Part shown: positions 9,604-15,826 of the stretch, piece by piece
How the letters are laid out: each line of letters opens with the position of its first letter
Position numbering within the stretch: position 1 is the first letter of the stretch
From: a virus
Length of the DNA stretch: 21,342 nucleotides
IMG/VR virus record: IMGVR_UViG_3300022752_000452
Location: 1 to 21,342 of that record
Reading direction: 5' to 3' (one strand)
Notes under the pieces: model-generated
Seen by the model: only the letters and a program-made list of their open reading frames with translations
Told to the model about the DNA's origin: nothing
The model's database searches: none
Program-made: the position numbers and the translations under genes

Positions 9604-10447
<844 letters not shown>

Positions 10448-10460
10448 TGGAGGATACCAA

Positions 10461-11567
10461 ATGAAACTATGGACAAATAACACAAACGCAATTCACAAGG
10501 TCGATGACAATATGCTCTACCCGCGCACTACCTATGTACTGCCCGATGAGCTAACTGGACCAATCTGGGACGATTCAATCCCTTGCCCACACAAGATCAA
10601 GCCGTACTACAAGGGGCGCGCTGCTGGTGGGGCAACAGCCGTCTACCGCGCTGGTGCAATTGGTGACGCGATCATCGCTACTGCCTTCGTCAACTACTTG
10701 GTACAAGAGTCGGGTGGGGTTGTGGAGGTTTACGCTCCTGCTCGCAACCTGCCTCTCTACGCTGGGCTGGGTGCAAGGCTGTGGCCTTTGCCATCCTCGC
10801 TGGAGGCGTGGGATTCATTTGATGCACACTTGCCAACGGATGATTTGTTCAGCGGACAGGTTGGCAACACCAAGCTAGGCACTGGTCCTGGCAACTGCTA
10901 CCAGCGGATCTACGAGTGGATGGGTGTGTGGGATGAGAAGACGATGGCTAAGTATTGTAAGCCAGTTCTACATCTCATCGAGCCAGACCATGAAGAGTTG
11001 AAGGCGATGGGAAAGTGGCCGTTGCCAGACCCGTTCTTTGCTTACCATGTTTCTTCAAGCGGTCCGACCCGAACCTACCCGCCAACAATGGGGCAGGAGG
11101 CGGTGCTGGCGTTACTAGAGGCTTACCCCAAACATCACGCTGTTATCATCGGGCTGGATAACTCAAACAACTTTAAGGTGGATCATCCCAGGGTGATTGA
11201 CCTATTCAACTGCACAAAGGCTGTGCGCTCGCTGTTCCCGATTATAAGCGGGGCTGACTTCGTTGTTGCGCCAGATAGTTCAGTCAACCATATGGCTGCT
11301 GGGTTGGATACTCCGTGTGTGTCGTTGTGGGGTTCGTATTCCCCAGAAGACAGAATGACTTATTATAGTAAGAACGTATCGGTCTTCAAGCCCGACACCT
11401 GCCCACACGCGCCTTGCCGTCCTCACGCTGGGTTGCCGCAAGCGAAGTGTAAGGATGCGACCAACAAGACTCCCAAGACTCAATACTGGTGCAATGCTCT
11501 GCGGAATATAACAGCGCAGGATATTGTTGAAGCATCCAAAAAGGCAATAGAACTAGAAAACAAATAA
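10461..11567 (+). CDS. GT9-like (heptosyltransferase-type) glycosyltransferase
   Basis: A 368-residue GT-B-fold enzyme. I use ATG 10461 (GGAGG eight bases before it, ATGA overlap) instead of an upstream ATG at 10431. The N-terminal domain has Gly65-Ala-Ile-Gly-Asp69 followed by a helix, as in ADP-heptose:LPS heptosyltransferases. The C-terminal domain has Ala-Pro-Asp272-Ser-Ser-x-Asn-His277-Met-Ala-Ala-Gly and Val-Ser-Leu-Trp-Gly-Ser-Tyr, the nucleotide-sugar loop of GT9. A Cys-rich patch follows (about 313-352), which could bind a metal. In bacteria GT9 enzymes build the LPS core; in a phage the acceptor may be host LPS, a virion protein or DNA. Confidence 0.8.
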   Translation: MKLWTNNTNAIHKVDDNMLYPRTTYVLPDELTGPIWDDSIPCPHKIKPYYKGRAAGGATAVYRAGAIGDAIIATAFVNYLVQESGGVVEVYAPARNLPLYAGLGARLWPLPSSLEAWDSFDAHLPTDDLFSGQVGNTKLGTGPGNCYQRIYEWMGVWDEKTMAKYCKPVLHLIEPDHEELKAMGKWPLPDPFFAYHVSSSGPTRTYPPTMGQEAVLALLEAYPKHHAVIIGLDNSNNFKVDHPRVIDLFNCTKAVRSLFPIISGADFVVAPDSSVNHMAAGLDTPCVSLWGSYSPEDRMTYYSKNVSVFKPDTCPHAPCRPHAGLPQAKCKDATNKTPKTQYWCNALRNITAQDIVEASKKAIELENK

Positions 11568-11569
11568 CT

Positions 11570-11739
11570 AACTGGCGTTGTGGTATGCAAGGAGATCTTG
11601 CATCGGGCGTTTCCTCAGTGTGTCTACCCCTTGAATCAGAGCCAGTTTGAATTTTAATATGAACTTAATGTCCCGAATGGTACGCAAGGAGATCTTGCGG
11701 CTGTGTGCTACTAACCACATCTGAAACAAAGGGACATTA
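11570..11739 (+). ncRNA. Tandem stem-loop element, candidate structured RNA
   Basis: Two 22-bp near-identical repeats (11581-11602 and 11678-11699, 97 bp apart) each fold into a hairpin with the same GAGAT loop. Copy one has a 7-bp stem (ATGCAAG with CTTGCAT). Copy two has CGCAAG with CTTGCG, so a T-A pair has become C-G, a compensatory change. Each hairpin is enclosed by a longer-range inverted repeat: AACTGGC 11570-11576 with GCCAGTT 11641-11647, and TAATGTCCC 11666-11674 with GGGACATTA 11731-11739. Both domains also contain a GTGTG...CTAC string after the hairpin. The loops include GGAGA, like a Shine-Dalgarno core. Transcribed RNA, protein-binding site or endonuclease target are all possible. 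The 225-bp gap 11568-11792 holds nothing else clear. Confidence 0.45.
11631..11660 (+). promoter_or_regulatory. Possible promoter for the HNH/primase segment
   Basis: TTGAAT (11631-11636) and TAATAT (11655-11660) are spaced by 18 bases, a sigma70-like arrangement with four matches in each hexamer. Transcription would start near 11667, at the left arm of the second long inverted repeat, giving a structured leader to the HNH gene at 11793. Weak evidence. Confidence 0.3.
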
Positions 11740-11792: not shown

Positions 11793-12299
11793 ATGACCGA
11801 TGAAGAAATCATTCGGTGGTTCAGAAGTGTTGATCCATCGACTAGCAGGCCGCAAAGCTATTCAGAGCTTGCGTCAATAAAAACCCCACAATTCATAAGC
11901 GACGATATTGATCGCGCCTATATAAGCGGAGCAATTGATTGCGCTGATATGTTCCTATCGATGTACAGAAAGGGATATATTAGGGTAACTGAAACGCATA
12001 ATGTTTTTATGCGATGGTTGCATTCAAGAAAGAAAACATCTTGGAACAAGATAGAAGATTGGCACGAACCCATATCAACCTGGACAAGCACAAGAAGAAA
12101 AGTCCTTGCCAGATGTAATAACAAATGCACGATTTGTGGCGCAGATGATAATTTGGAAATTCACCACAAGGTTGCTGTTGCAGATGGAGGAGCGATGGAT
12201 TTAGAAAACTTAACTACTGTGTGCTTCAAATGCCACAGGGAAAGGAAAGATGAAACTACCGACACGAACACAGCAATTCATAACAAACGGAGCGCATGA
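11793..12299 (+). CDS. HNH endonuclease
   Basis: A 168-residue protein with a helical N-terminal half and a C-terminal HNH domain. The domain has Cys112-x-x-Cys115, His124-His125 in the first strand, a Gly-Gly turn, Asn-Leu-Thr-Thr in the central part, and Cys-x-x-Cys-His near 143-147. The paired CxxC motifs form the structural zinc site and the double His the catalytic centre. Free-standing phage HNH enzymes are usually homing endonucleases or nicking enzymes helping packaging. The gene follows the structured gap and overlaps the primase-helicase start by 50 bases, so its end is constrained by the downstream gene. AAAGG precedes the ATG. Confidence 0.8.
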   Translation: MTDEEIIRWFRSVDPSTSRPQSYSELASIKTPQFISDDIDRAYISGAIDCADMFLSMYRKGYIRVTETHNVFMRWLHSRKKTSWNKIEDWHEPISTWTSTRRKVLARCNNKCTICGADDNLEIHHKVAVADGGAMDLENLTTVCFKCHRERKDETTDTNTAIHNKRSA

Positions 12300-14175
12300 G
12301 GGGCAACGCAACGAGGAGTTGTTCCTAGCCGCACAGCAATTGCGAGATGCTGGACTAGATGAATTTTCAGCAATCGACAAGCTGTATCCATCAGCTACCG
12401 CTTCTGGATTAAAGGAGCGAGAAATAGAGGCAGCGGTTAAGTCTGCGTACAGAAGATCGCCAAGACAACCGTTGAGCTTTAGCCCATTCAAAGCGAATGA
12501 ACCAATGAAGATAGACATTGCCCCTTGCCCAACCCCAAGCCATCACGCCGATGATGTAAGACGATTTCTGCTGACCGCATTTAATGAAGGCGATCGGGTT
12601 TGCATTGTCGGTGCCATTCATCAGGACGACTCAGAAAGGCCATCTGGTAAGGGAACAATAAAGACCCGCGAGGAGTGGCTAGATCAGTTTCATTCTGGAG
12701 TGGAGCTTCCAGACTCGTACGTTGGTGCGTATGTCTGCATCAATCCCTGTGGAGATTCGAGGAAGTCAGATGACGTTACAAGCTTTCGCCATGCCCTAAT
12801 TGAATTTGATAGCGGAACGATGGACGAGCAGTGGTCGATCATCAACGCGCTTGAGCTGCCTTGTTCGGTTGTGATTCATTCGGGATCGAGATCGGTTCAT
12901 GCTTGGGTAAAGGTAGATGCCAAGGACATCAAGGAGCATCAAGAGCGAGTTGCGTATCTGTACTCAAAGATGGCTCAGTTCGATATAGATCCGAAGAATA
13001 AGGATGCATCAAGATTATCAAGACTACCAGGTGCGCCGAGAAAGCTTGCTAATTCATATCAAGCACTACTAGCTACCAATACTGGACGTAGCGGGTGGAG
13101 CGAGTGGAAGGCACACATGGAGGCCATGAATCTCCCACAACAAACACCCTGGTCGGACATCCTTGGATTTAAGGCGGAGGATGACAACGATTGCTTACTT
13201 GGCAATCGATGGCTGTGCAAGGGTGGTAGTTGCGTTTGGGTCGGCGGATCTGGACTTGGTAAGTCAACGCTATGCCTTCAAGCCATGATGACTTGGGCGA
13301 TAGGTTTACCGTTCCTTGGCATAACCCCGAAGAAGCCTATGCGTAGCTTGCTTATCCAAGCCGAGAATGATCTTGGTGACGTTGCCGAGATGGCTCAAGG
13401 CGTACTACGACATCTGAAAGCCAAGCTGACATTGTCAGAGGAGCAGTCTGCGATGATGCTTGCCAATGTGATTATTGTCAGAGATTCAACAAAGACGGGG
13501 CCAGACTTCGCAAAGATGGCAGCCGCACTGATAGGAGTTTATAGACCTGACTTATGCTGGATTGACCCGCTTCTATCATTTATGGGTGGAGATGCCCTAG
13601 CTCAAGAGAACATGACGATGTTCCTGCGACACTGCCTAAATCCGATCAGTGTGGCGACTGGTGTGACGTGGATGGTAATGCATCACACCCCAAAGCCACC
13701 CAAGGAGGGGCAGCATTCACAAGTGCTGTATGACTTGGCATACGCTGGCATAGGGTCAAGCGAGCTTACCAACTGGGCAAGAGCCGTGGTGTACCTTCAG
13801 GCGGTTAAGGAAGGGCATTTTAAACTGTCGTTCCCGAAGCGCGGAGGCAGGGCTGCTATACCATGGCCTCAAGGGGATACTGATTTGCATGAAAGCAAGT
13901 ACGCGACTCATGTGTGGCTGCGACACGCAGAGGAATGGATGGCATGGGAGGAGTCAAATGGTCCAGAGAATAGAGGCAGGGGCAGACCAGAATTAACCAT
14001 AGAACAAGCCATTCCAGATTGGCCCAAAGGGCATGGTTATAACGATTGCATTGACCATATTATTGAGTCAACTGGATGCTCCAAGAGAAAGGCTCAAGAG
14101 TTATTTGCTTCCGCAAAAGCTGACGGAACTATCACCAAAAATGGTCAAGGCTGGGAGATCACACAGATTCCGTAA
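12250..14175 (+). CDS. Primase-helicase (prim-pol-like domain plus RecA-fold helicase)
   Basis: A 641-residue replication protein. N-terminal part: a helical region (1-75), then a primase-like domain with Ile184-Glu-Phe-Asp187, His210...His217-Ala-Trp and Asp252-Ala-Ser-Arg-Leu-Ser-Arg-Leu-Pro-Gly261. This is the acidic, His and Arg pattern of archaeo-eukaryotic-type phage primases. C-terminal part: a RepA/DnaB-like ATPase with Walker A Gly332-Gly-Ser-Gly-Leu-Gly-Lys338-Ser-Thr and Walker B Cys-Trp-Ile-Asp439. A Met-His-His-Thr-Pro stretch follows, as in RepA-type helicases. The last 60 residues look like a winged-helix fold. The candidate origin lies directly downstream. Such fusions lay primers and unwind DNA for phage replication. 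ATG 12250 lies inside the HNH gene; a later start would cut the helical part only. Confidence 0.8.
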   Translation: MKLPTRTQQFITNGAHEGQRNEELFLAAQQLRDAGLDEFSAIDKLYPSATASGLKEREIEAAVKSAYRRSPRQPLSFSPFKANEPMKIDIAPCPTPSHHADDVRRFLLTAFNEGDRVCIVGAIHQDDSERPSGKGTIKTREEWLDQFHSGVELPDSYVGAYVCINPCGDSRKSDDVTSFRHALIEFDSGTMDEQWSIINALELPCSVVIHSGSRSVHAWVKVDAKDIKEHQERVAYLYSKMAQFDIDPKNKDASRLSRLPGAPRKLANSYQALLATNTGRSGWSEWKAHMEAMNLPQQTPWSDILGFKAEDDNDCLLGNRWLCKGGSCVWVGGSGLGKSTLCLQAMMTWAIGLPFLGITPKKPMRSLLIQAENDLGDVAEMAQGVLRHLKAKLTLSEEQSAMMLANVIIVRDSTKTGPDFAKMAAALIGVYRPDLCWIDPLLSFMGGDALAQENMTMFLRHCLNPISVATGVTWMVMHHTPKPPKEGQHSQVLYDLAYAGIGSSELTNWARAVVYLQAVKEGHFKLSFPKRGGRAAIPWPQGDTDLHESKYATHVWLRHAEEWMAWEESNGPENRGRGRPELTIEQAIPDWPKGHGYNDCIDHIIESTGCSKRKAQELFASAKADGTITKNGQGWEITQIP

Positions 14176-15121: not shown

Positions 15122-15826
15122 GTGACTACCCATCTAAACCGCACACAATTGCTTCAGGATCGTTTATACGGGGTTTTGAACCAAGAAATGGGTCGCGCAG
15201 GCTCAATCTCTATAAACAGCTCCATATTGAGAGAAGAGCCACAAGGCAATTATGGCCTGAATTTGATAGAATGTAGGTGTTGTGGGGAGTTTAAGGAAGT
15301 ATCAAAATTTAGCATAGATAGGTCAAGCAAGAGGGGTTATAATAAATTTTGTAAGCTATGCAAAAGCATTGGCAAACCACAAGACATGCCCAAAGTGGCA
15401 AAATTTTGTTCTGAATGTGGGGCAGACATTACTCACAAGGTTTTCTCTGCCGCAACATGTTCATCAAAATGTGCAAGCATTAGGTCAGACAAGAGGTCCA
15501 AGGGCGACCAATTCTTGATATTCAATAGGGATGGATGCAGGTGTCAGTATTGCGGAAGGACACCATCCGAAGATGACATCAAAATAGTGTGCGATCACAT
15601 TGTACCAAAAATAGAAGGTGGCGAAGATACCGCAGACAATCTTGTTGCTTGTTGTGTTGGATGCAACTCATCTAAATCGGGCAAAAAACTATTGCCAGAA
15701 ACCTTGGAGCTAATATTTAAATCTGTTGCCAGTAAAAATGAAAAGCTTGGAATCAGCCCAAAGAAAATTATTACTGGATCTCACTCTAGGCGTGTTGTAC
15801 CAAGGTGCGATGAGCAAGCAAACTAA
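15122..15826 (+). CDS. HNH endonuclease with two extra zinc ribbons
   Basis: A 234-residue protein, GTG start, built from three Cys-rich units. A first ribbon has Cys51, Cys53/54, Cys77 and Cys80. A second has Cys96, Cys99, Cys113 and Cys117. The HNH domain has Cys141-x-x-Cys144, Asp158-His159-Ile-Val-Pro, Gly-Gly at 166-167, Asn173-Leu-Val and Cys178-x-x-Cys181-Asn182. Asp-His is the metal/general-base pair and Asn the second histidine-like position. Multiple zinc modules before HNH are typical of free-standing homing endonucleases that recognise long sites. Base use here is more AT-rich than in the neighbouring genes, in line with recent arrival. It probably recognises a site near its own insertion point. 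Confidence 0.8.
   Translation: MTTHLNRTQLLQDRLYGVLNQEMGRAGSISINSSILREEPQGNYGLNLIECRCCGEFKEVSKFSIDRSSKRGYNKFCKLCKSIGKPQDMPKVAKFCSECGADITHKVFSAATCSSKCASIRSDKRSKGDQFLIFNRDGCRCQYCGRTPSEDDIKIVCDHIVPKIEGGEDTADNLVACCVGCNSSKSGKKLLPETLELIFKSVASKNEKLGISPKKIITGSHSRRVVPRCDEQAN

Follow-up and report, generated by a model that had tools for sequence, protein, structure and literature searches.

A conserved three-way-junction RNA element, duplicated in tandem in one phage genome and dispersed among phages and archaea

The 21,342-nucleotide stretch of viral DNA analysed here, referred to throughout as the window (IMG/VR record IMGVR_UViG_3300022752_000452, positions 1 to 21,342), carries two near-identical short repeats between a glycosyltransferase-like gene and an HNH endonuclease gene, and the question they raise is whether they represent RNA, DNA or coding sequence. 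The initial annotation described two hairpin-forming repeats with a compensatory base change, each enclosed by a longer inverted repeat, and suggested a duplicated RNA domain or a duplicated protein-binding site. We confirm that the repeats lie at 11581-11601 and 11678-11698, with a spacing of 97 nt and one difference in 21-22 nt. Specifically, the hairpins are; 1) a stem TGCAAG/CTTGCA with a GAGAT loop at 11592-11596, and 2) a stem CGCAAG/CTTGCG with a GAGAT loop at 11689-11693, such that the T-A pair of the first (11586-11602) is exchanged for C-G in the second (11683-11699). The enclosing inverted repeats are also exact, being of 7 bp in one case (AACTGGC 11570-11576 / GCCAGTT 11641-11647) and of 9 bp in the other (TAATGTCCC 11666-11674 / GGGACATTA 11731-11739).

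The two hairpins are the P2 stems of two tandem copies of one larger RNA fold, at 11570-11647 and 11666-11739, and each duplicated domain is thus larger than the hairpin described earlier. The element is an uncatalogued structured RNA of about 70-90 nt (about 75 in the window), built as a three-way junction of stems P1, P2 and P3, and the first copy starts 3 nt past the stop codon of the upstream gene. The features of the locus are as follows.

10431-11567, + strand: upstream gene, glycosyltransferase family 9 (GT9)-like (Pfam PF01075, E 2e-8)
11570-11647, + strand: element 1, complete structured RNA domain with P1, P2, P3 and junction (cmsearch, model R1, 62.1 bits, E 3e-15)
11570-11576, + strand: P1 5' strand of element 1 (AACTGGC), exact complement of 11641-11647; P1 co-varies across the family
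11583-11604, + strand: P2 hairpin of element 1, loop GAGAT at 11592-11596; 11 P2 haplotypes at the orthologous site, mostly compensated
11605-11630, + strand: P3 hairpin of element 1 (GGG...CCC), variable in length, supported by P3 covariation
11631-11640, + strand: conserved junction strand of element 1 (TTGAATCAGA; family consensus UGAAACA), invariant columns
11641-11647, + strand: P1 3' strand of element 1 (GCCAGTT), complementary to 11570-11576
11666-11739, + strand: element 2, complete structured RNA domain (model R1, 66.8 bits, E 1.6e-16); minimum-energy fold equals the conserved fold
11666-11674, + strand: P1 5' strand of element 2 (TAATGTCCC), exact complement of 11731-11739
11680-11701, + strand: P2 hairpin of element 2, loop GAGAT at 11689-11693, from repeat comparison, R1 match and folding
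11702-11719, + strand: P3 hairpin of element 2, from folding; sister loci have unrelated yet paired P3 stems, e.g., TGGTAATC/GATTACCA
11720-11730, + strand: junction strand of element 2 (TCTGAAACAAA), from R1 match and family alignment
11731-11739, + strand: P1 3' strand of element 2 (GGGACATTA), complementary to 11666-11674
11793-12299, + strand: downstream HNH endonuclease gene, context only (Pfam PF01844, E 2e-11)
12250-14175, + strand: primase/helicase-like gene, context (PHROG 2597, DNA primase, E 8.5e-52)

The comparison of folding energy with shuffled sequence, which had been proposed as a check, divides between the copies. Element 2 alone folds better than its shuffles (z -3.41) and its minimum-energy fold is the conserved one, element 1 alone reaches z -1.45 with a minimum-energy fold that misses the conserved fold, and the joint 225-nt region is no better than shuffled (z -0.30). 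Folding energy is therefore weak evidence for the element, and chance is ruled out because homologues exist and not because of energy. The initial annotation had let its reading stand or fall with folding energy and covarying homologues together, and the latter were decisively found. A covariance model, R1, built only from loci other than the window, recovered both window copies in a cmsearch run (66.8 and 62.1 bits, E ~1e-16 and 3e-15) and returned no further copy in the window.

The homologues came from several routes. When viral contigs were scanned for the hairpin core GCAAGGAGATCTTGC, many loci showed the same longer architecture, often as a tandem pair 94-98 nt apart, and a stem-free pattern (ATGGTNNGNNNGGAGATCNNNCNNC ... 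TTGAAACA) gave 108 loci whose stems are quite different. Variant patterns with ATGAAACA or with one P2 pair swapped gave at least 120 and 80 loci, respectively, where by our estimate more than 20 fixed bases with this range of gaps would be expected by chance about once or less per collection. In total, 323 instances with a complete P2 were collected from 297 loci (287 unique sequences), and pattern and covariance-model searches together place the element in hundreds of environmental phage genomes, at more than 290 viral contig loci, with 1-3 copies per phage record. One record holds a triple tandem, with three copies in 300 nt (L255, 1036-1331, + strand). Among cellular genomes, matches were found in 3 of 388 sampled Verrucomicrobiota and in 3 of 200 sampled Nitrososphaeria, the latter with 5, 4 and 16 copies. 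None of 297 Desulfobacterota genomes matched, in a sample without a known positive, so that the element may still occur in this group; a single pattern match in Desulfobacterales looks like chance and was set aside.

Across the family P1, the closing stem, varies freely in sequence and in length, from about 5 bp to over 12 bp. P2 is a hairpin of 5-6 bp with a GNRA-like GAGAN loop; its base is a conserved G-U/A-C, with a bulged nucleotide. P3 is a variable hairpin, and the junction strands UGGU and UGAAACA are conserved. In 39 seed sequences, 14 of 18 pairs show double changes and 87% of cells pair, against 36-52% in a slid register. The figures for 106 aligned members (93.4% of cells paired and 37-45% on sliding; 566 cells with double changes and 174 after shuffling) and for the archaeal members alone (92.7% against 34-44%) come from alignments that were fitted to the structure and are biased towards it, a bias which is limited by the slid and shuffled controls and by the MAFFT alignment of the seed. 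Similarly, UGGU, GGAGATC and UGAAACA formed part of the search patterns and their conservation is partly by construction; conservation of the core was seen independently in loci found by protein or model search, namely the window lineage, the terminase lineage and the archaea. The loop reads GAGAA or GAGAG in the terminase lineage and GAGAU, GAGAG or GAGAC in archaea, and the window lineage has GUGGU occurring together with UGAAUCA, where elsewhere AUGGU goes with UGAAACA. A short inner helix at the junction, with AAACA as a bulge, is suggested by pairing of (C/U)AUG of J1/2 with (C)NUG before AAACA in 85% of cells, and only suggested because double changes are never seen there.

Which strand folds is given by the mismatches that are tolerated. 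P2 has 98 G.U against 1 A.C and P1 has 87 G.U against 26 A.C, which means that one strand folds, and this is the mRNA-sense strand in nearly all contexts. The signature fits RNA, as far as sequence can tell, and single-stranded DNA of the same strand would fit too. Strong covariation and a P2 that tolerates G.U, not A.C, on the mRNA-sense strand thus support the earlier proposal of a duplicated RNA domain, whereas a protein-binding site, if there is any, would work at the level of RNA, or of that strand as single-stranded DNA, and not of double-stranded DNA. That the element is a conserved structured RNA of the sense strand we regard as very nearly certain. A peptide-coding reading, in which P2 on the + strand reads MVRKEILRR or HGxQGDPA, was rejected as a general explanation because frames differ between copies; P3 indels that are not multiples of three, and stems that change in compensating pairs, also count against it.

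In the window lineage the element is a fixed feature. A protein search with the glycosyltransferase gave 80 loci, and all 78 of those that could be tested keep the element downstream, either right after the GT9 gene or separated from it by as much as 1.3 kb of inserted genes, with 11 P2 haplotypes at the orthologous site, most of them compensated. What follows the element is HNH, primase, PAPS-reductase-like (a label from sequence reading) or unknown genes, and this variation around a fixed element makes the HNH gene incidental. The earlier placement before an HNH gene is correct for the window, where the gene begins at 11793, but does not extend to sister phages, in which the same pair precedes primase or other genes, and an HNH-linked element was rejected. 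A second HNH gene in the window (15122-15826, + strand) has no structured element beside it.

Elsewhere the distribution is patchy. Of 37 records of the terminase lineage, 30 belong to a terminase branch without the insert and have no element over 16-41 kb, and 6 of the 7 others carry one or two. Phages with terminases about 69-77% identical lack the element entirely, so there is no general requirement for it. Homologous terminases occur both with and without the insert at the same loop, which is too variable for the ends of the insert to be placed. Crude-ORF blastp clustering of 13 carrier against 7 sister records found no gene common to carriers and missing from non-carriers.

For 150 intergenic copies both neighbours could be read, with 99 co-oriented, 35 convergent, 9 divergent and 7 antisense, so that 134 of the 150 follow a gene on the same strand (sign test 2e-24) and convergent sites exceed divergent ones (35 against 9, sign test 1e-4), P values that are optimistic as the copies are related and ORF calling was crude. 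Many copies begin less than 20 nt past a stop codon. In about 13 phages the element lies 0-12 nt from a tRNA on the same strand, and three records carry it in tRNA arrays (L401, within a long array, L458 and L420). In the array of L401 (1-1910, - strand) two elements sit snugly between tRNAs, and two extra hairpins of GGAGATCTCC or GGGACGTCTCC type, at about 1255 and 1600, look like divergent relatives. The gene just upstream, by sequence reading, is SSB- or DUF669-like in several unrelated phages (L127, L280, L346, L374 and L421). An intrinsic terminator, a GC stem followed directly by a T-run, was rejected, as just 34 of 287 unique copies have TTTTT at a distance of 8-30 nt past UGAAACA. A 5'UTR riboswitch was also rejected, the downstream genes being unrelated and 35 copies lying at convergent ends.

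Other copies lie in frame within real genes, including the terminase large subunit (phrog_38), a Mu-type portal (PF06074) and a 330-aa family, and they use two reading frames. At the terminase site TCTGGGGAGATCCCAGA in P2 is replaced by TCCGAGGAGATCTCGGA, with altered amino acids, which indicates that pairing is kept and not the peptide. One terminase large subunit has grown to 926 codons (L515, 1501-4278) and carries a variant of the element whose loop closing pair reads C-GAGAG-G. At three loci (L111 3754, L186 1994, L207 3479) the start codon of the next gene is inside P1 and the reading frame spans the whole element (MTEVPTHGVQGDPATA...), such that the N-terminus of the gene is made of the RNA element.

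The archaeal copies lie in 3'UTRs, and decayed second copies occur. In the genome with 16 copies (G1192), 11 follow PQQ-dehydrogenase paralogues on the same strand, at a distance of 70-288 nt from their 3' ends, beyond a hairpin and T-tract which may already terminate transcription upstream of the element. In related archaea the PQQ-dehydrogenase family is reported to be one of those with the highest expression (PMC7300363). In the same genome a PQQ-dehydrogenase pseudogene with four stops (C7, 166212-166992) still has a well-folded element downstream.

We favour a cis-acting RNA element on the 3' side of transcripts that would control 3' processing, decay or termination, because it lies on the sense strand, 3' of genes and tRNAs, is a self-contained fold and showed no common protein partner in the carriers compared. 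As an autonomously folding block or recognition site, it might determine the extent of 3' processing, decay or termination in the gene or tRNA upstream, and tandem copies could reinforce each other. A host factor, or the RNA itself, is the probable partner, because no phage gene common to carriers was found. We give this explanation a probability of about 35%, a figure that covers the whole of it including the mechanism and is separate from the narrower claim of a structured element. A 3'-side role does not easily explain the in-frame copies in the middle of genes (terminase large subunit, Mu-type portal), and a simple exonuclease block would need no conserved core. The phages that lack the element altogether, and the possible terminator that precedes it in archaea, also count against this explanation. 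Given the mid-gene copies and the invariant core, rival readings have to be considered, namely a trans-acting RNA, a ribozyme, a selfish palindrome and an antiterminator.

In the first of these the fold, excised or not, would be a stable RNA or decoy whose target is a host factor, such as a protein of defence or decay, and position would matter only for high transcription. The copies in the three tRNA arrays, those next to SSB-like and lysis-type genes and those in frame within genes would agree with this, as would 1-3 copies per phage record and an accessory distribution between sister lineages. We nevertheless think it unlikely, as the 16 copies in an archaeal chromosome, most tied to one gene family, look cis-acting and no link to defence was seen.

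A new class of self-cleaving ribozyme, trimming or separating transcripts, is also an improbable reading, although a three-way junction whose core is invariant while its arms vary freely, the position between genes and tRNAs, the scatter over phages and archaea and the failure to find a common partner gene are what such a ribozyme might show. In one carrier phage (L126) the element even lies 0.9 kb from a type II hammerhead on the same strand (1805-1863, - strand; Rfam RF02276, 39.7 bits), but 16 other carrier loci have no known ribozyme, and the in-frame copies in the middle of terminase genes keep the fold where cleavage would cut the message. Like hammerheads and other small self-cleaving ribozymes, the element is scattered in phages as a three-way junction with an invariant core; it lacks the hammerhead CUGAUGA...GAAA arrangement and no Rfam ribozyme matches it.

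It is similarly doubtful that the element is a selfish palindromic repeat, comparable to Rickettsia palindromic elements or REPs, that inserts where it is tolerated. Insertion in frame, in unrelated genes and in two reading frames, presence or absence at the same terminase loop and dispersed and decayed archaeal copies would all be expected of such a repeat, and the element resembles Rickettsia palindromic elements and in-frame MITEs in being short, palindromic, dispersed and in frame in unrelated protein genes (Ogata 2000; PMC10969869). However, Rickettsia palindromic elements measure about 150 bp and encode a conserved peptide (PMC10969869), whereas the element is read in two frames, has indels that disrupt any peptide, is constrained in its RNA pairing and mostly lies 3' of genes on the sense strand. 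Moreover, all 78 window-lineage loci keep the element, with compensatory change at the orthologous site, the bias to the sense strand is strong, and no transposase was found; nor was a target-site duplication, the terminase loop being too variable to place the ends of the insert.

There is little to recommend a nascent-RNA antiterminator or anti-Rho element, functionally like the put sites of phage HK022, which are two stem-loops near early promoters. Placement where translation stops, just past stop codons, and in untranslated tRNA operons would suit it, as would the sense strand, the phage carriers and the failure to find a common phage protein, but 35 copies at convergent gene ends would then promote antisense transcription and the element also occurs in archaea, which are not known to have Rho. 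Like put, which acts nascent without a phage protein (PMC9378689), the element is a short phage-encoded structured RNA, its own activity being putative; unlike put, it is a three-way junction, often past stop codons or at convergent ends, and also archaeal. A single-stranded DNA structure, such as an attC-like recombination site or a replication initiation site, would accommodate the tolerance of G.T on one strand and the nearby primase genes (window lineage) and SSB-like genes (others), but is most improbable as orientation consistently follows transcription, the element occurs in archaeal 3'UTRs and tRNA arrays, and P1 ends vary freely without attC core sites. Integron attC is likewise a strand-specific, folded imperfect palindrome just 3' of a stop codon, yet has one hairpin where the element has three arms, and carries RYYYAAC/GTTRRRY (R''/R') core sites which the element lacks at its ends.

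The element has the conserved secondary structure and compensatory change of the structured families in Rfam 15, but no family matches it. At the gathering score there are no matches in the window, only tRNAs and one hammerhead in 12 carrier loci, none over the element, and one tRNA in 16 further carrier loci. With E up to 10, the window stretch matched only an off-strand lncRNA (E 9.9) and an archaeal copy only an off-strand lncRNA and an MS2 hairpin (E 0.67 and 5.3), which is at chance level. The L17 downstream element, a structured domain in a potential 3'UTR called highly unusual in bacteria (PMC2864571), and other 3'UTR motifs are likewise structured, but the L17 element is tied to one ribosomal gene and differs in fold and hosts. 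No prior description was found in the open-access full text that was covered, so an earlier report elsewhere is possible. Within Rfam 15 and the open-access literature, then, the element is an RNA family with no known relative.

On balance we believe that it represents a new functional RNA class of tailed phages and archaea, a small and possibly catalytic three-way-junction fold working in 3'UTRs, between tRNAs and inside ORFs, that would have escaped cataloguing because its carriers are almost all uncultivated. That hundreds of phage loci and archaeal 3'UTRs share a conserved RNA whose core is invariant implies an RNA function common to two domains of life, one that the sources searched do not describe. 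In prokaryotes, structured elements in 3'UTRs are rare, and persistence of a fold inside phage ORFs at the cost of amino-acid changes is unusual.

BLAST searches of INPHARED and of plasmids, in which BLASTN is weak for so variable an element, gave no convincing copy, save a possible divergent one in each of two isolated Microcystis phages (PP438416.1 43291-43343 and OR083034.1 17637-17689). Both candidates are intergenic, before the terminase small subunit, and have the loop GAGAG with UAGA in place of UGGU.
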